In this document: positions 3,281 through 34,198 of the stretch, piece after piece
Position numbering within the stretch: the first letter of the stretch is position 1
Layout of the letters: each line of letters starts with the position of its first letter
Assembly: GCA_900314605.1 (NCBI GenBank)
Contig: OMVX01000018.1
Coordinates: 1-35,826, forward strand
Source of the DNA: an uncultured Methanobrevibacter sp.
GTDB taxonomy: Archaea; Methanobacteriota; Methanobacteria; Methanobacteriales; Methanobacteriaceae
Direction of reading: 5' to 3'
Length of the DNA: 35,826 nt
Notes under the pieces: generated by a model
Seen by the model: the letters and a program-made list of their open reading frames with translations, nothing else
What the model was told of the DNA's origin: nothing
The model's database searches: none
Translations under genes and position numbers: made by a program

Positions 3281-3293
3281 TGAGGTGAAGAAA

Positions 3294-5750
3294 ATTTCAT
3301 TGAGAAGAAAGTCGATTTTATCATTACTATTATTAGTTTCTCTAATTTTATGTATCTCTGCAGTTTCTGCAAGTGAGTTTAGTGACTCTAATAATACAGT
3401 AAGTTCAGTTAATACTTTATCAACAGATTCTAATCTATTGAATACTAATTCTGATCCTACAGATAGTGGAGTATCAGAAGTTTGTAATGAGGAATCCTCA
3501 TCAGATGATAATTTGGGTACTGGTTCTTCTAATATTGTTGAATCCACTAATCCTACAATTTCATCTGGTCAATGTTCAGTTGATGAAAATAATATATATA
3601 CTGCAGAAGAACCTGCGGTTGTTAAAGTTTCACAAGCTAACAAATTTTCCTCAGAAGATTCAACTGTTGTTAAAAGTCAATCATTAACTAAAACTTATTT
3701 TAAAGCAACCAATAAAAAAATGTTTAATGGTCAAACATATTCTGTTGGTTTGTTAGATTCAAAAAATAATATCCTTTCTAATCAAAAAATAACATTTAAA
3801 GTTAATGGAAATGTTTTTACTTCAACAACAGACAAAAACGGTTATGCAGGTTTTTTAGTTAATTTAAAGCCTGGTACCTATAACATTGCTTATTCCTTTG
3901 CAGGGTCTAATGCTTATATGGCTACTAGTGGTTCTAGTATTATAACTGTTGCAAAGAAAGCAACTTACTTTAGAGTTTATAGTACTACTACAACTTATGA
4001 TGCTAAGAATAAGGCTCAAATTAAATTGAGAGATCAAGATGGTAATAATCTTGCAGGTCAAAATATTAAGGTAATTGTTAACGGTAAAACTTATAAGTTT
4101 ACTACTAATTCCAATGGAAATGCTTACCTTAATGCTGTTTTAAAACCTGGTTCTTATAAGACAACTGTTAAATTTGATGGTTCAAGCTCATATGAAGCTT
4201 CAAATAAAACCATTACTATTAATGTCAATAAAGCTGTTTCTAATATTGCTGCAGCAAATGTTAAATATTACTATTCTGATACTGGTAAAAAGTTCAATGT
4301 AACTTTAAAAAATAGCAATGGCGATCCATTAAAAAATCAAAAGATCTATATTGTTACCAGTAAAAAGACTTTTACAGTTAAAACCAATTCAAATGGTATT
4401 GCATCAAAAAGTATAAGTATGCCCGTTGGAAAGTATAGTATAAACTATTATTATGAAGGTAGCTCATGTTACCTTGGTTCTAGACCGGCTAAAAAGGCTA
4501 CTATTACCATTTTAAAAGATGCTATTAGATTCCAAGCAAGTAACTACAGAATGAATTATCATAATGGTAATTACACTGTTAAGTTACTTAGTGCAAAAGG
4601 TAAACCAATGTCTAAAGAAAAAGTTACTTTTAGACTAGCAGGTAAAGATTATGTAGTTTTAACAAATAAAACTGGTGATGCTACTTTACCTATTGATAAA
4701 AGTGTAGGTACCTATAAAATTAAATTTTCATATGTTAACCCTAAAGACAAAAGTCAATCAGCTTCTGATACTAAAACTATTGTTATTAAAGGTATTAAAA
4801 CCATTTTAAATGGAACTAATATTTATTATAACTATGGTCAAAATAAGCCATTAAAAGTTACTTATCAAACTGCTAGTGGTAAAGTTTTACCAGGAGTTGA
4901 AGTTAATTTTGTTGTAGATGGTGAAAATTATACCAATACAACTGATTCAAATGGTATCGCATATTTATATTTAAATAAAGGTGTTGGTGCTTATATGGTT
5001 CAGTATTCAGTTGGTAATCATACAGCATATCAAGAATCCTCTAACACCAGTAAAGTAGTTGTTAAAGGTTCTGTTTTTATTGCAAAATCAATGACTTGGT
5101 ATACTAAATCGTATGGAAATTATACTGTTAGATTAGTAGACCACTATGGTCATCCTATTGCAAATGCTATAGTCACATTCAGTGCTGTTAATAGGACTTT
5201 TAAAAGGGTTACCGATGCGAATGGTTATGCTAATTTAGCTTTTAAACTTGCTAAAGGTAAGTATAAAATTGGTTTTACCTATGACGGTAATTCTACTTTA
5301 CCAGGTACCAGTGGTGCTAAATATCTCACTATTAAAGATAAATCTGTAGACCCTTCAAGTATTAAATCACTAGCAAGGACCCTTACAGAGGGACTTACTT
5401 CTGATTATGAAAAGGGTAAAGTTTTATTTAATTGGGTTAGAGATAACATAGATTATAGTTACTATGCTAACTCTCAACAAGGAGCTGCAAAAACTCTTAA
5501 AATCAGATCTGGTAACTGTTGTGATCAATCTAATTTACTTGTGGCTTTATGTAGAGAAGTTGGTGTTACCATCAGGTATGTTCATGGTAGAGCTCAATTT
5601 TTAGATGGTACCTTTGACCATGTTTGGACTGAAGTAAAAGCTAATGGTAAATGGTATGAAGCTGACCCTGTAACTGTCAGAGATACATTTGGTCATAATG
5701 CATGGGTTCTTATTTGTATCTATGCAAGATACTGGGATTTACCATTTTAG
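3294..5750 (+). CDS. Secreted Ig-like-repeat protein with transglutaminase-like domain
   Basis: About 818 residues. The start is ambiguous: GTG at 3285 overlaps the Shine-Dalgarno GAGGTGA, ATT at 3294 is seven bases after its GGT, and TTG at 3300 is also in frame. I chose 3294 by analogy with two other genes here; all three give a signal peptide (RRKS, a Leu/Val/Ile core, then AVSAS). A Ser/Asn/Thr-rich segment of about 95 residues follows, then six Ig-like repeats of about 90 residues, then a transglutaminase-like domain with Cys in SGNCCDQ, His in FDHVWTEV and Asp in YEADPV. The catalytic domain is close to that of the protein upstream, but no pseudomurein-binding repeats separate it from the Ig-like repeats. 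Likely a surface-anchored or released wall-acting or adhesin-like protein. The substrate is unknown. Confidence 0.85.
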   Translation: MSLRRKSILSLLLLVSLILCISAVSASEFSDSNNTVSSVNTLSTDSNLLNTNSDPTDSGVSEVCNEESSSDDNLGTGSSNIVESTNPTISSGQCSVDENNIYTAEEPAVVKVSQANKFSSEDSTVVKSQSLTKTYFKATNKKMFNGQTYSVGLLDSKNNILSNQKITFKVNGNVFTSTTDKNGYAGFLVNLKPGTYNIAYSFAGSNAYMATSGSSIITVAKKATYFRVYSTTTTYDAKNKAQIKLRDQDGNNLAGQNIKVIVNGKTYKFTTNSNGNAYLNAVLKPGSYKTTVKFDGSSSYEASNKTITINVNKAVSNIAAANVKYYYSDTGKKFNVTLKNSNGDPLKNQKIYIVTSKKTFTVKTNSNGIASKSISMPVGKYSINYYYEGSSCYLGSRPAKKATITILKDAIRFQASNYRMNYHNGNYTVKLLSAKGKPMSKEKVTFRLAGKDYVVLTNKTGDATLPIDKSVGTYKIKFSYVNPKDKSQSASDTKTIVIKGIKTILNGTNIYYNYGQNKPLKVTYQTASGKVLPGVEVNFVVDGENYTNTTDSNGIAYLYLNKGVGAYMVQYSVGNHTAYQESSNTSKVVVKGSVFIAKSMTWYTKSYGNYTVRLVDHYGHPIANAIVTFSAVNRTFKRVTDANGYANLAFKLAKGKYKIGFTYDGNSTLPGTSGAKYLTIKDKSVDPSSIKSLARTLTEGLTSDYEKGKVLFNWVRDNIDYSYYANSQQGAAKTLKIRSGNCCDQSNLLVALCREVGVTIRYVHGRAQFLDGTFDHVWTEVKANGKWYEADPVTVRDTFGHNAWVLICIYARYWDLPF

Positions 5751-6105: not shown

Positions 6106-6117
6106 AGAGGTGTAATA

Positions 6118-7703
6118 ATTATTTCAAGTAAGAAATTTATAATTCCAATAATTTTATTAATTTTCTTTTTAAGTTTAGGTTTTATTGCAGCAAGCGATAA
6201 TTCAAATTTTGATAATAGGGAATTAGCTAATGAGTTATATGTAGATGATGTGGATATCCCTGCTTTAAATGGAGAAGATTCTAATAATCATACTCCTTCA
6301 GAAATGTCTAAATCTAATGAAATTATATCAAATAATAATCAAAAGTCTAATTCTTATTCATCTACCCTATCTAGTTCTAATAAAAATGGAAAAAAAGATT
6401 TGGTTATTAAAGCTTATAATTTAAATTATAATTACGGAACAAATAAAAATTATAAAGTAAAATTAATCAATGAAAAAGGTAATCCATGTAAAAACTTTAA
6501 AGTTAGAATATACTTTAAATCAAAATATTATACTCTTACAACAAATAATAATGGAAATGCCTTTTTAAAACTTAAATTAAATCCTGGAATTTATCAAATA
6601 AATATTAAATTTTTGGGTGACAAGAATTATAATCCTTGTAATATTACAAGAACCATTACTACAAATGGAACATATGTTTATGCTACTTGTCCTAGATTAA
6701 CTCCTAAAAAGTATTAAATTATCAGGTTAAAATCAAGGATTTAAATAAATTACCAATTGTTGGAGAATATGTTTCTATAACACTTGGTTCAAAAAAAGTT
6801 AAGGTTAAGACTAATAATCAGGGACTTGCTACTTTTAAAATTAAAGTTCCAAAAAAGTCAATGAAATTTTATCTTACTTATTCTGGAAAAACTTCACCTT
6901 TAACCACCATTAAAAGATATATTTATACTTTTAAAAATATGCCAAATCAAAATAGTATATGGGTTAGAGGGGAAGATATGTATAATATTAATCTTAATAC
7001 TCTTAAAAAATCTAATGTTAAAAATATTTTCCTTCATACATATGCTCTAGATGTTTTTGGTAAAAATAAAGTTAAGAACTTTATTGAAAAATCTAATAAG
7101 TATGGAATTAAAGTTCATTTATGGATGCAGTGTTTCTATAATGGTGACTGGATTAATCCATTAACTTGTGGTCAAAAGTACCTAAATAAGATTATTTCAA
7201 GAGCTAAATCTTATGCAAAAATTCCTGGTCTTGCAGGTATACATTTTGATTATTTAAGATTTGGTGGAAATGCATATGAATATAAAGGTGCTACTGAGAA
7301 AATTAGTTCTTTTACCAGAGATATTACCAATGCAATTGTTGAAGTAAATGGTGGTTTAATTTTATCAGCAGCTATTATGCCTGAGAAAGAAGATATTTAT
7401 TATTATGGTCAGGATCCTAATACATTAGGTAAGTATTTAGATGTTCTTGTACCAATGGTATATATTGGTAATTACCACCAAACCTATAAATGGATAGGAA
7501 CAATGACTAAATATTTTAAGGCTAATAGTGATACTGCAAAAGTATGGATTGGTCTTCAAACCTATAAATCAGATAGTAATCCTGTTCCAGTATCTGTTAC
7601 AAAATTAGCTAAACAAGTTAATGCTGCATATGATAATGGTGGTGATGGTATAGCTTTATTTAGATTAGGTCTTACAAATTTCTACAAAATAAGAACTAAA
7701 TAA
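6118..7703 (+). pseudogene. Secreted Ig-like-repeat protein with glycoside-hydrolase-like domain, broken by a one-base frameshift
   Basis: Two frames together make one protein. The first runs from about 6118 to the TAA at 6715-6717 and encodes a signal peptide (SSKKFIIPIILLIFFLSLGF then IAAS), a Ser/Asn-rich linker and one Ig-like repeat. The second continues from about 6708 to 7703 in another frame with a second Ig-like repeat (QVKIKDLNKLPIVGEYVSI) and a TIM-barrel-type domain. That domain has GIHFDYLRFGG, typical of the DUF4015 putative glycoside-hydrolase family, plus VHLWMQ and LVPMVYIG. The break is at a run of five A (6706-6710); six A would restore one frame. Possible explanations are a recent mutation, phase variation, programmed -1 slippage or a sequencing error. 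No ATG, GTG or TTG precedes the signal peptide in frame after the TAA at 6076, and ATT 6118 is the best-placed start (GAGGTG at 6107-6112). The first ATG, 6250, would lose the signal peptide. Confidence 0.75.
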
Positions 7704-9864: not shown

Positions 9865-9889
9865 AGTTTAATAATTTCAGGTGATTAAT

Positions 9890-29191: not shown

Positions 29192-29794
29192 TTACCAGTT
29201 ATAATTATAATAAGCTCCATCATCAAAGGAATCATCAAAACTATCATCATATGCATCTGATTCATAATCTAAATTATCATCAAAGTCATACTCATCATGT
29301 GTTTTGGAAATATAATCTTTTTGAGTAATTCCAGATATGACATAAGAGATATCTACTCCTTTTGTTTGTAAATATATCACATCATTTCCAGATGCAAAAA
29401 CAAAAGTTTTAACTCCATTTTGTTCATTATAAAAACCACTGACTCCGGAAATTGTTGTTTTATATAAAGATTGACCATTCCATGTAAAATAAGTATATCC
29501 ATCCATAATTTTTTTATTATATTGGTTAGAATATTTGTCTATATTAACCTTTACATAATCATCTCCTTTTTTAAAATTCATATAATTTAGTTGACTAGAA
29601 CTATCAAATCCTTTTCCAGTTGATTTATATGATGAAGGTACATTAAAGGTATATTCTTTAAAATAATAACTTGATTGACCATTAGATCCATATAATCCTG
29701 CAGAAACAGTTTCAGAAATAACAATTGTTGATAAAAACATTGTTAAAATTATAAAAACTATTAAAATACCTTTTTTATAATTATCTTTTTTAAT
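29192..29794 (-). CDS. Small secreted protein with acidic C-terminal tail
   Basis: About 200 residues if started at ATT 29794 (- strand). The first in-frame ATG (29740) lies in the middle of the signal peptide; the full signal is KKDNYKKG, then ILIVFIILTMFLSTIVIS, then ETVSA. Upstream in frame there is a TAA, then GGT-GTT-ATT-ATT with no ATG, GTG or TTG. The Shine-Dalgarno GGGGTG lies just before, with GGT six bases from the ATT. The mature part has a beta-rich look (YYFKEYTFNVPSSYKST, FYNEQNGVKTFVFASGNDVI), and ends in an Asp/Tyr-rich tail with DDSFDDSFDD. I cannot name a family. It is probably exported; the acidic tail may bind cations. Confidence 0.7.
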   Translation of the reverse strand: MKKDNYKKGILIVFIILTMFLSTIVISETVSAGLYGSNGQSSYYFKEYTFNVPSSYKSTGKGFDSSSQLNYMNFKKGDDYVKVNIDKYSNQYNKKIMDGYTYFTWNGQSLYKTTISGVSGFYNEQNGVKTFVFASGNDVIYLQTKGVDISYVISGITQKDYISKTHDEYDFDDNLDYESDAYDDSFDDSFDDGAYYNYNW

Positions 29795-30080
29795 AATAAC
29801 ACCCCATTATAGTATTATATAATAAATGATTTTTTTTAAATATAAATCTTTCTAAAATTAATAGTGTTCGTATTTGAAATTATACATAAATATTAAGGTG
29901 CTTATTTATAATATAATCTAAAAAAATTAATTTTCCTACATATTATTATATTAGTTTATTTTAATTTTTTAATATATACCATTTTTTTTAAAAAAATTTA
30001 AATTATTTATATTATAATAATAATTAATAGATTTAATTCATATTTTTATTAAGTATATTTTTTCACTTATTTTTATGGGG
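29795..30080. other. Divergent intergenic region
   Basis: Between the small secreted-protein gene (-) and the helicase gene (+). It holds the Shine-Dalgarno of the former (GGGGTG, - strand, 29800-29805) and of the latter (GGGGGG near 30077-30082). A/T-rich promoter-like tracts occur, with nothing else recognisable. Confidence 0.4.
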
Positions 30081-30088
30081 GGTTTTTA

Positions 30089-33000
30089 ATGGTTGACTTA
30101 AATAAAAATCAGGCTAATGCAGCTTATTATGATGGGAATAAGTATTTAGTTATTGAAGCTGGGCCTGGATCAGGTAAAACACGTGTTCTTATTGAAAGAA
30201 TAAAATTTTTGATTAATGAAAAAGATGTAGACCCTTCAACTCTTTTAGTAATTACTTTTACTCGTAAAGCAGCTGATGAACTTAAAGAACGTTTATCAAA
30301 TGATATTGATGAATCTGATTTAAATTTAATGCAGATTTCAACTATTCATGCTTTTTGTAGAGTTATGCTATCTAATATTGGAGAATATAATACACGGATA
30401 TTAAGTGATAGTTTTAATGAAAGAATTAAAATGTTTTTATATAAATATAGGAAGGATTTAGGATTTGATAAAGAATGCACTATTCGACCAACTGAAATTT
30501 ATAATTTAATAAAAAAATATAATGAATATGCTACTTTTAAAGTAAATACCGATGAATTAGTCAATTATATTAGTGAAAATTATAAGGTTCAATCAGATTA
30601 TATTGATTTTGTTAATAAATATATGGATCATCATAATGGAGAATTTCCTTTCAATGAGGTTAAAGCGAGCAATTCATTTAAAGAATCTAGAAAAAATGCC
30701 TTATATTTACAAATAGCTAAATCTTATCCTAAATATCTAGAACTTTTAGATGAGAAGCGATTTTCTGATTTCAATCAGATGCAAATAAAAACTTTGGATT
30801 ATTTAAAAGAAAATCCTAAGACCCAGTATACAAATATTTTAGTTGATGAGTTTCAAGATACTGATCCTGTTCAGATGAAGATTTTTGAAATTTTAATGAA
30901 AGAAGCAGTATCTTTTACTGTGGTTGGAGATATAGATCAGAGCATATATGGTTTTAGAGGTGCTAATAAGAATTATTTTGAATATTTATACAATAATTAT
31001 GATGATAAGGTATATAAAGTAAATTTAAATGTTAATTATCGTTCAGCTAATCAGATTATCCATATTAGTGAAGATTTTATTAAATCACAAAGAACTACCG
31101 GTGCTAAACAGGATGCTGCTATAGGGGCTCGTAATTTAGATAGAGATTCTTACTTTTTTGTAAGTGAGGGTAGTGAAAATGAATCTAAATCAATTTTTAA
31201 TATGATATCATATTTGCATGATAGTGGTAAAATTGAAAATTATAATGAGATTTCTATTTTATCTCGTTCAATTAAACATAATAAAACAGCTAAAGCATTG
31301 ATTCAGTTATTTGATAATAATAAGATACCTTATCATATTAGGGGTATTCCTGATTTATTTGATAAACCTGAAATAAGATCTATTTTAACATTAATTTTTC
31401 ACCTTATACAGGATGAAAATCCTCAGAATCATAAGTTTTATAAATGGGAATTAGAATGGTTAAATCTTAAAGCTTTTACTGGAGAAAACTTTAATCAGGT
31501 TTTATTTAATTTATCTGATGAAACTAAAAATATTTTAAACAATCTTCAAGAAAATTTCGAAAAAGAACTTTTTGATAAAGAAAAGGATGTTTATTTGAAG
31601 ATAAAAGGTGAAAAAAGTCATATAAAGGGGTTTCGTGGAGTTTTTAATAGAGAGAATGATGTTTTAGTGGAATTATTTAAGAATGTAGAAAGACCTATAT
31701 TAACAGATGATAATTTAATTAAATTCGGTGTTACTAACAAAGAGGATTTAGATTTCTTTAGAAAATTAAACAAGTTAAAAAATTATATTTCCACTAAAGA
31801 TTATCAAGATTCAGATGATACAATATTAGATATTTTAATAATTTTATTAACTGATGTTTGCAATTATTTAACAGAAGACCGTATTAATGATTTTGATTAT
31901 CGTGAGGAATTAGAAAATTTAGCAATAATTAGTAATACCTTTTACAATTATGAGTTAATTGTTGATAAAAAAAATCTTAAAGGTGTTTTTCATTTTTTAA
32001 GATATAATATTCATAATTATTATACGAATGCTGATGAAAATGAAGGAATTCAATTAATGACAATACATAAATCTAAAGGATTAGAATTTCCTATAGTTAT
32101 ACTTTTATCATTAGATGAAAAAAGATTCCCTCGTGAATTTAAAGAAAAAAAAGAATCGTATCATACTCCTATTTCCTTCTTAGAATATAAAAATTTTACA
32201 TCTAAAGAAGAAGAAATAATTGAATATGATCAGGAAGAGGAAAGAATTGTTTATGTAGCTATGACAAGAGCACAAGATACTTTAATTCTATCTAATTTAA
32301 TCAAAAAATCTAGTGAATTCAATAAATTAAATGAAGAACTTAAAGAAGAATTATCTGAAATAGAAAAAAAAGATATCATACAAGAAATACCAAAAGGACA
32401 TTTTAAAATTCAAAATCTAATAAATAATAATTTAAATGAATTTAAATATCTTCAAGATGATTTTAGTATTATTCCTAAAACTGTTTGTGAAAAGCCACCT
32501 ATAAAAAATGAGAAGATAATTAATTTAAGTTTCAAATCTCTTGAAGACTATATTTATTGTCCTTTTAAATATAAATTAGTTCATGATATTAATTTTTCAG
32601 AGTCTACACTTGAATCTAATAAGTTAATGGGGTTATTCTTACATAATATATTAGAAACAATAAATAAAAAAATAGGTTCAAATAATAATCAATATATTGG
32701 GGATGATGAAGTTTTACAAGTAATTGATAACTTCATATCTTCTTTTAAATTTCAAAATTTAAAATTATCTAACTCTGATATTAATATAATAAAAAATAAT
32801 GTACTTTATTATTATAATACTTTTGGAAGAGATTTCTTAGTTAAAAATACAGAACAATCTTTTAATATTAAAAATCAACTATATCAACTATCTGGAATAA
32901 TAGATTTAATATATGAAACAAAAAACGGAAAAATTGGCCTGTTAGATTATAAAAATACAGATTTAATTTCTAAAAATTATATTAAAAAGTATATTAAACA

Positions 33001-34198
33001 ACTTTATATTTATCTTATCGGATTAAATGACCGTTTAAAAATTGATGAATTAAAAATTTATGCTATAAAATCACGAAAAATGATTAATATTAATTTAAAA
33101 GAAGAATTATTAGAAATTCTTTTAGAAGAGCTTGATTTAGTTTCACTAAATATTCAAAAAGAAATTTTTAAATGTAATATGGATGATGATTGTTATAAAT
33201 GTAGCTTTTCTAAAATATGTTTTAAATCAAATAATAATGGTTCTGTTAATTATCTTGATAAAGATTTAATTTTAACTTTTCACGATAAGTTTTATGAAAA
33301 TTTACCAGATTATGAGATTATAGATTTAAAAGATGAATATTGGACAGATATTGAATTTAATAATTCAACTCATTTTAAATCTAATACCTTACCTCATAGT
33401 AATAGTAATAGTAATAGTAATAGTAATAGTAATAGTAATAGTAATAGTAATAGTAATAGTAATAGTAATAGTAGTAATAATAATTCAGCATTAAAATTAT
33501 CTAATTTTAATATTAAGGAGGATAACTGTCATATAGATGAGATTATAGAGTATTTTAAAGCCAATAAAAATGAATCAAATATAAAAGAGATGGATAGGTT
33601 AAAGATATATTCTAATAAAAAATATGGTATTAAAAATCAGGATTTAGCCAAATTAGCTAAAAAAATTGGAAATAATCATGAACTCGCATTAGAATTATGG
33701 CAATATGACTGTCATGAATCTAAATTTTTAGCTATACTAATTGAAGACCCTTTACTAACATCTAATGATCAATTAAACCAATGGGTAAATGACTTAGATA
33801 ATTATCATATTGTAGACCATGCATGTAAAAAACTATTAGTTAATATCCCTTTTGCTATAAATAAAATACCAATATGGGCAAAATCAGATAAAGAATTGAT
33901 AAAAAGAACTGCTTTTAGTTTTATTGCAGTACTTGCATCACAGAATAATAAGGTAGATAATATAAACTTTGAAGAGTTTTTTCCGATTATTATTGAAGCC
34001 TCTTCTGATGATAGAAAATATGTTATAAAATCAGTAAAATGGGCTTTAGTATCTATTGGAAGATTAAACGAATATTTTAATATGCGAGCTATTGCAGTTT
34101 CTAACGAAATTAACCAATTAGATTTTAAATCAGCTAAATGGATAGCAAAAAAATCATTAAAAGAATTAAAAAGCAATAAAGTTCAAAATTCTTTTTAA
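30089..34198 (+). CDS. UvrD/PcrA-type helicase fused to a Cas4/AddB-like nuclease and an AlkD-type DNA glycosylase domain
   Basis: 1369 residues. Part one is an SF1A helicase: Q motif near residue 7, Walker A GPGSGKT (25-31), ITFTRKAADEL, DEFQDTDPVQ (about 252-261), GDIDQSIYGFRGAN (about 280), MTIHKSKGLEFP (about 655) and YVAMTRAQDTL (about 720). Part two (about 815-1050) looks like a PD-(D/E)XK nuclease: GLFLHNILE (His), GIIDLIYE (Asp), LLDYKN (Asp-x-Lys) and KQLYIYLIG (Gln). Cys in YIYCPFKYKL plus CYKCSFSKIC (C-x2-C-x5-C) match the four-cysteine iron-sulfur staple of Cas4/AddB. After a linker of twelve Ser-Asn pairs, part three (about 1148-1369) matches AlkD HEAT-repeat glycosylases: KKYGIKNQDLAKLAKKI, ELWQYDCHESKFLAILI, Asp1243 (AlkD Asp113) and Trp1318 (AlkD Trp187), with Tyr1239 at the Trp109 position. 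It probably unwinds, cuts and repairs alkylated DNA. ATG 30089 follows GGGGGGTTTTTA. Confidence 0.85.
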   Translation: MVDLNKNQANAAYYDGNKYLVIEAGPGSGKTRVLIERIKFLINEKDVDPSTLLVITFTRKAADELKERLSNDIDESDLNLMQISTIHAFCRVMLSNIGEYNTRILSDSFNERIKMFLYKYRKDLGFDKECTIRPTEIYNLIKKYNEYATFKVNTDELVNYISENYKVQSDYIDFVNKYMDHHNGEFPFNEVKASNSFKESRKNALYLQIAKSYPKYLELLDEKRFSDFNQMQIKTLDYLKENPKTQYTNILVDEFQDTDPVQMKIFEILMKEAVSFTVVGDIDQSIYGFRGANKNYFEYLYNNYDDKVYKVNLNVNYRSANQIIHISEDFIKSQRTTGAKQDAAIGARNLDRDSYFFVSEGSENESKSIFNMISYLHDSGKIENYNEISILSRSIKHNKTAKALIQLFDNNKIPYHIRGIPDLFDKPEIRSILTLIFHLIQDENPQNHKFYKWELEWLNLKAFTGENFNQVLFNLSDETKNILNNLQENFEKELFDKEKDVYLKIKGEKSHIKGFRGVFNRENDVLVELFKNVERPILTDDNLIKFGVTNKEDLDFFRKLNKLKNYISTKDYQDSDDTILDILIILLTDVCNYLTEDRINDFDYREELENLAIISNTFYNYELIVDKKNLKGVFHFLRYNIHNYYTNADENEGIQLMTIHKSKGLEFPIVILLSLDEKRFPREFKEKKESYHTPISFLEYKNFTSKEEEIIEYDQEEERIVYVAMTRAQDTLILSNLIKKSSEFNKLNEELKEELSEIEKKDIIQEIPKGHFKIQNLINNNLNEFKYLQDDFSIIPKTVCEKPPIKNEKIINLSFKSLEDYIYCPFKYKLVHDINFSESTLESNKLMGLFLHNILETINKKIGSNNNQYIGDDEVLQVIDNFISSFKFQNLKLSNSDINIIKNNVLYYYNTFGRDFLVKNTEQSFNIKNQLYQLSGIIDLIYETKNGKIGLLDYKNTDLISKNYIKKYIKQLYIYLIGLNDRLKIDELKIYAIKSRKMININLKEELLEILLEELDLVSLNIQKEIFKCNMDDDCYKCSFSKICFKSNNNGSVNYLDKDLILTFHDKFYENLPDYEIIDLKDEYWTDIEFNNSTHFKSNTLPHSNSNSNSNSNSNSNSNSNSNSNSNSSNNNSALKLSNFNIKEDNCHIDEIIEYFKANKNESNIKEMDRLKIYSNKKYGIKNQDLAKLAKKIGNNHELALELWQYDCHESKFLAILIEDPLLTSNDQLNQWVNDLDNYHIVDHACKKLLVNIPFAINKIPIWAKSDKELIKRTAFSFIAVLASQNNKVDNINFEEFFPIIIEASSDDRKYVIKSVKWALVSIGRLNEYFNMRAIAVSNEINQLDFKSAKWIAKKSLKELKSNKVQNSF
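33398..33469 (+). repeat. In-frame (AGTAAT)12 hexanucleotide repeat
   Basis: Twelve perfect copies of AGTAAT encode (Ser-Asn)12 between the nuclease and AlkD parts of the helicase protein, then AGT AGT AAT AAT AAT. The absence of any synonymous change indicates recent slippage growth. Six-base units keep the frame, so linker length can vary without breaking the gene. Confidence 0.95.
33515..33523 (+). promoter_or_regulatory. Internal Shine-Dalgarno-like sequence before the AlkD domain
   Basis: AAGGAGGAT lies inside the coding sequence just upstream of the first AlkD-domain residues (HIDEIIEYF, from 33530). No ATG, GTG or TTG is suitably placed in frame. It may be the relic of a once separate alkD gene or a chance Lys-Glu-Asp codon run. 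Confidence 0.4.

Follow-up and report, generated by a model that had tools for sequence, protein, structure and literature searches.

The window, meaning the whole 35,826-nt stretch of DNA analyzed here, is contig C34 of the 2.37-Mb draft genome of an uncultured Methanobrevibacter species (G000), which is AT-rich (25.6% GC) and assembled in 103 contigs. The genus was represented by four species in the genome collection, and the second of these (G002, record "Uncultured Methanobrevibacter sp. isolate Reindeer_1_mag_112") supplied most of the orthologs described below. The locus of interest is a surface-protein gene whose reading frame opens at a putative AUU start codon behind a strong Shine-Dalgarno (SD) motif. 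Its features are collected in Table 1 with the other candidate starts of the window and four metabolic genes which appear to use similar codons.

Table 1. Coordinates or loci of the features discussed in the text.
Feature	Position or locus	Strand	Start or spacing	Basis and remarks
Shine-Dalgarno GAGGTG	6107..6112	+		Matches AGGAGGTGAT, the motif upstream of ATG starts in G000; identical in G002
Putative AUU start codon	6118..6120	+	Spacing 5 from GGTG	No canonical in-frame start until 6250; ATT kept in G002
First canonical in-frame codon, GTG	6250..6252	+		44 codons downstream of 6118; whole signal peptide lost if used
N-terminal part of secreted surface protein: signal peptide and weak Ig-like/macroglobulin-type domain	6118..6714	+	Putative ATT	Translation; ortholog L002 in G002
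C-terminal remainder of the gene: DUF4015-like domain (putative glycosyl hydrolase)	6708..7703	+		-1 frame; homology to G002 and PF13200
Shine-Dalgarno GGGGTG, second ATT case	29800..29805	-		Sequence
Second ATT-start candidate, ATT AAA AAA GAT followed by signal peptide	29192..29794	-	Candidate ATT at 29794	GGGGTG-TTATT-ATT
Ambiguous case: GAGGTGA, in-frame GTG 3285, ATT 3294	3282..3296	+	ATT at spacing 6	GTG overlaps the SD
Polyphosphate kinase (PPK1)	L116		Putative ATT	NCBIfam
Prephenate dehydratase (pheA)	L151		Putative ATT	NCBIfam
Damage-control phosphatase	L119		Putative ATT	NCBIfam
Aspartate carbamoyltransferase (PyrB)	L070		Putative ATA	NCBIfam

The initial annotation had proposed, from the sequence of the window, that GAGGTG is followed six bases after its GGT by an ATT start codon, and the positions confirmed this arrangement (spacer TAATA; five bases counted from the end of GGTG). 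The codons which follow ATT 6118 read ATT TCA AGT AAG AAA and lead into a hydrophobic signal peptide, IISSKKFIIPIILLIFFLSLGFIAASD, so that the N-terminal signal peptide claimed for this reading was indeed present in the translation. The frame is bounded upstream by an in-frame stop just before 6079, and no ATG, GTG or TTG was found in frame between this stop and GTG 6250, in agreement with the earlier claim that no standard start precedes that codon. No SD was found at a proper distance upstream of GTG 6250. When the distance from SD (at least 5 nt, measured from GGTG) to ATG was determined across G000, the mode was five bases (120 of 233 ATG genes), and ATT 6118 therefore occupies the position expected of a start codon. 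The adjacent ATT at 6121, with a spacing of eight, is a less likely alternative.

The gene start in G002 reads TTTTAAGAGGTGTAATAATTATTTCAAATAAGAAATTT and its counterpart in the window TCTTTAGAGGTGTAATAATTATTTCAAGTAAGAAATTT. A block of 22 consecutive nucleotides, AGAGGTGTAATAATTATTTCAA, comprising the SD, spacer and first codons (ATT-ATT-TCA), was identical in the two species although the DNA upstream had diverged, and the G002 ortholog contained no canonical start. This identity, together with the lack of a canonical start in G002, argues against a decayed ATG in the window copy.

Of the Pfam matches to the two parts of the encoded protein, the Ig-like domain (Big_3_5) scored 26.6 bits, under the cut-off of 35.5, and PF13200 (DUF4015) scored 27.9 bits against a cut-off of 27. 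The frame opened at 6118 closes at 6717, and the homologous continuation lies in the -1 frame. As the G002 ortholog is a single uninterrupted frame of 772 codons (71% identity over the C-terminal part), the window copy has a one-base frameshift near 6711-6717 (within 6705-6720) in the G000 assembly, on which the initial annotation was silent. This may be either a real pseudogene mutation or an assembly error, and the full protein may not be made from the frameshifted copy.

The window has a second ATT case on its minus strand, where the first canonical codon is an ATG 18 codons in, within the signal peptide. The G002 copy of this small secreted protein (L014, G002:C66, 1000-1600) is decayed, with its SD now reading GAGATG and stops near the start, while the remainder is about 80% identical. 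The ATT TCA at 3294, offered earlier as a possible further case, is present at the expected place, but the in-frame GTG 3285 overlapping the SD leaves this start ambiguous, and either codon could initiate the transglutaminase-type surface protein that ends at 5750. Two other frames of the window, at 9881 (TrpS-like) and 19582 (ABC ATPase), look like GTG starts by ORF rules but have a TTG in frame at a spacing of six from GGTG; they are probably ordinary TTG starts, to which naive calling of the GTG within GGTG adds three residues. Sites where ATT immediately precedes ATG were left out. The window additionally encodes a helicase/nuclease-like protein of 1369 amino acids (30089-34198) with an alternating Ser-Asn run (SNSNSN...).

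The frameshift raises the alternative that the gene at 6118 is an untranslated pseudogene, its ATG decayed to ATT and its frame broken at about 6711, and the clearly decayed G002 copy of the second window case points in the same direction. We regard this explanation as improbable, given that the G002 ortholog carries the same ATT ahead of an intact long frame, that SD, spacer and start were retained across species in otherwise divergent upstream DNA, and that comparable starts were found in intact housekeeping genes.

These housekeeping genes appear to use ATT or ATA, which with ATC make up the third-position mismatch starts AUU, AUA and AUC (here AUH). The NCBIfam models of PPK1, prephenate dehydratase, the damage-control phosphatase and PyrB all aligned with the N-terminus, no more than a few residues from position 1, and for the phosphatase and prephenate dehydratase residue 1 or 3 fell on profile position 1 or 3. 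Support for the starts of pheA, pyrB and the phosphatase comes from protein alignments reaching residues 1-4. In the PyrB leader the ATA follows AAGGTGATTTAA, and in AAGGTGATTTAAATA an in-frame TAA separates the GTG from the ATA, so that GTG cannot be the start. Apart from the metabolic genes, those with AUH starts encode mostly secreted proteins, ranging from 120 to 1984 amino acids.

A further group of genes has a spacing of six. In the Rrp41 region (L186-L227) of termite and ruminant Methanobacteriaceae the arrangement GAGGTG-N6-ATC/ATT is kept, with ATT or ATC after the SD in M. cuticularis, M. curvatus, M. filiformis, Methanovirga, Methanobinarius and M. olleyae-type records, whereas the M. 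millerae-type clade has ATG. The ATT/ATC is constant across many species while the spacer is variable, and L211 carries AGT with ATG as the next codon. A Cas10-like gene (L063 13760, G000:C44), with an HD motif near its N-terminus, reads AGGAGGTG-N6-ATT and likewise has GTG in frame. Because of the in-frame GTG inside the SD, we did not take Rrp41, MfnE or Cas10 as proof of AUH starts, and for these genes, as for 3294, GTG and AUH are both candidate starts.

Such cases lend some weight to the view that translation starts elsewhere, at the downstream GTG 6250 or, for spacing-six genes, at the GTG inside the SD, as a spacing of six always places the GTG of GGTG in frame (3285, Rrp41, MfnE, Cas10). 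For the gene at 6118 and for most cases in the strict set described below, the spacing is five with no canonical start in frame; GTG 6250 has no SD and its use would delete the signal peptide, the PyrB GTG is followed by an in-frame stop, and in Rrp41 the ATT/ATC persists while the spacer varies, with L211 having AGT and then ATG. Taken together this makes initiation at another codon very unlikely.

Genome-wide counts covered 1.67 Mb of G000, approximately 70% of the genome. When intergenic SD motifs of at least 6 nt preceding a long frame were considered, the codon at the right distance was ATG at 157 sites, TTG at 23 and GTG at 7. Among SD sites with no canonical start, ATT was found in frame at 12 of 33, compared with 0 of 66 out-of-frame triplets (p = 3.8e-7). 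A strict set of 20 sites was left after removal of any site with a canonical in-frame codon upstream, and AUH occupied 13 of these in frame (ATT 8, ATA 3, ATC 2) versus 1 of 40 out-of-frame positions (p = 1.8e-7), with ATT at 0 of the 40. Across 40 shuffled decoy motifs AUH was present at 137 of 895 sites, with a maximum of 11 in one decoy and never 13, although only the proportions are a fair comparison, and not the counts, since several decoys yield more sites than the real SD. The excess of ATT at this spacing, which had been put forward together with shuffled controls as the way to check the claim, was thus found. When the SD length was relaxed to 5 nt or more, the strict set contained 17 AUH and 296 canonical starts, or about 5% AUH. 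Signal-peptide-like N-termini, as called by a simple hydrophobicity rule rather than SignalP, followed 9 of the 17 AUH starts and 22 of the 296 canonical starts (p = 4e-6). At archaeal loci beyond the family there was no excess: 150 sites had canonical starts, and of the 42 unexplained sites 3 had AUH.

Chance has also to be considered, as ATT is among the commonest triplets in DNA of 26% GC and SD-like hexamers arise at random. A loose test using all SD-like 5-mers, with ATT within the first 50 codons, gave almost no excess (36 observed, 32 expected), because coding-region noise dominates; restriction to intergenic SD motifs with no canonical start resolved the signal. The strong frame-specific excess under that restriction, and the canonical starts found at the same position in orthologs, make coincidence highly unlikely.

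These orthologs were compared by aligning the starts and reading the codons directly. PPK1 begins ATT AAA AAA AGA in G000 and ATG AAA AAA AGA in G002. One zinc-ribbon protein has TTG in G000 and ATT in G002 (GGGGTGATAAT-ATT), another has ATG in G000 and ATA in G002, and a 292-aa protein has ATG in G000 and ATC in G003 (AAGGTGTTAAT-ATC). In a small membrane protein, G000 and G002 share ATT. Exchange of ATT with ATG or TTG, and of ATA or ATC with ATG, would be expected of AUH codons that serve as starts, and few other explanations would account for it. A sequencing or assembly error turning ATG into ATT in this metagenome-assembled genome, to which the 103 contigs and the possibly erroneous frameshift might point, is the least credible explanation in view of the same ATT in the independent G002 assembly, the occurrence of T, A or C as third base across many genes, and exchange partners that include TTG in addition to ATG.

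We therefore consider it likely that the surface-protein gene initiates at AUU 6118 with its signal peptide kept, and that the genus uses AUU, AUA and AUC at approximately 5% of clearly SD-led genes. The SD, its spacing, the lack of canonical starts, the genome-wide excess, the conservation and the exchange with AUG and UUG in orthologs are all directly visible in the sequences, and AUH starts in the genus are well supported on this basis. The lineage-wide tolerance of AUU initiation that had been suggested is supported by the excess and the orthologs, and appears to extend to AUA and AUC. From these data we infer initiation by the ribosome at AUU 6118, insertion of methionine and lowered expression from such starts. 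In this mechanism the SD GAGGUG would pair with the 3' end of 16S rRNA and bring AUU into the P site with the spacing normal for AUG; the initiator Met-tRNA (anticodon CAU) would then pair with A1 and U2, the mismatch at the third position being tolerated. The protein would begin with methionine and retain its signal peptide. The same would apply to other AUH-started genes, which include housekeeping enzymes and an excess of secreted proteins.

The initial annotation had pointed to the initiation factor aIF1 and the 3' end of 16S rRNA as places to look for a cause. The first of these was not fruitful, as the aIF1 of G000 looked ordinary when compared with its relatives and showed nothing which would explain a relaxed start choice, and 16S rRNA was not found in the 103 contigs of the assembly. 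aIF1A was present. KsgA/Dim1 was also present, each of the four genomes of the genus giving a strong match to RrnaAD, and no explanation for relaxed start choice was found in KsgA. Two tRNA genes with a CAT anticodon were identified in the sampled G000 contigs. The likeliest cause would be mutation pressure in AT-rich DNA, converting some AUG codons to AUH where a good SD sustains initiation. A broader proposal, which we offer only tentatively and consider doubtful, is that start-codon choice has relaxed in a lineage of the Methanobacteriaceae, where any AUN after a good SD may serve as a start, preferred for secreted surface proteins as a brake on expression and having spread, among the methanogens of termites and ruminants, into core genes such as pyrB, pheA, ppk and perhaps rrp41.

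The suggestion that gene finders would miss N-termini and signal peptides also holds, as Prodigal by design ignores ATA, ATT and CTG starts (PMC2848648). With programs of this kind, surface proteins of methanogens would have their N-termini and signal peptides truncated or lost, and these proteins are a class put forward as targets of vaccines for methane mitigation (PMC2812497). The passages of that paper dealing with adhesin-like proteins of Methanobrevibacter describe them as secreted, with Ig-like repeats, and as a large family in gut methanogens, and make no mention of non-canonical starts. By these features the 6118 protein has a clear hydrophobic signal sequence and an Ig-like match under the Pfam cut-off, and it differs in having a DUF4015-like domain. 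Third-base-mismatch starts are usually seen as curiosities, and here they would account for several percent of SD-led genes. The genus may offer a natural system in which to study how the stringency of start-codon choice is set by the archaeal initiation apparatus (aIF1, aIF2, SD strength).

Initiation at AUU is itself already known, with E. coli infC and pcnB the textbook cases and infC autoregulated by IF3. The gene at 6118 resembles these in having an AUU start after an SD, at which methionine is presumably inserted. The differences are that E. coli has a couple of AUU genes, compared with about 5% of SD-led genes in G000, where AUA and AUC appear to be used too, and that G000 is an archaeon with aIF1 and aIF2 in place of the IF3 of the E. 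coli system. What appears to be new is the frequency in an archaeon, and we found no report in the openly accessible literature of AUH starts in Methanobrevibacter or of a frequency near 5% in any archaeon. GTPS gene annotation allows AUA, AUU and AUC starts across prokaryotes, but as an annotation filter it gives no evidence of AUH use in the Methanobrevibacter lineage (PMC5397173). For the Asgard tubulin gene atubA a putative rare ATT start was proposed from the conserved N-terminus and a ribosome-binding site (PMC13394414). That start concerns a single gene and was inferred during cloning, with no genome-wide use shown (PMC13394414), whereas in G000 the excess of such starts is genome-wide.
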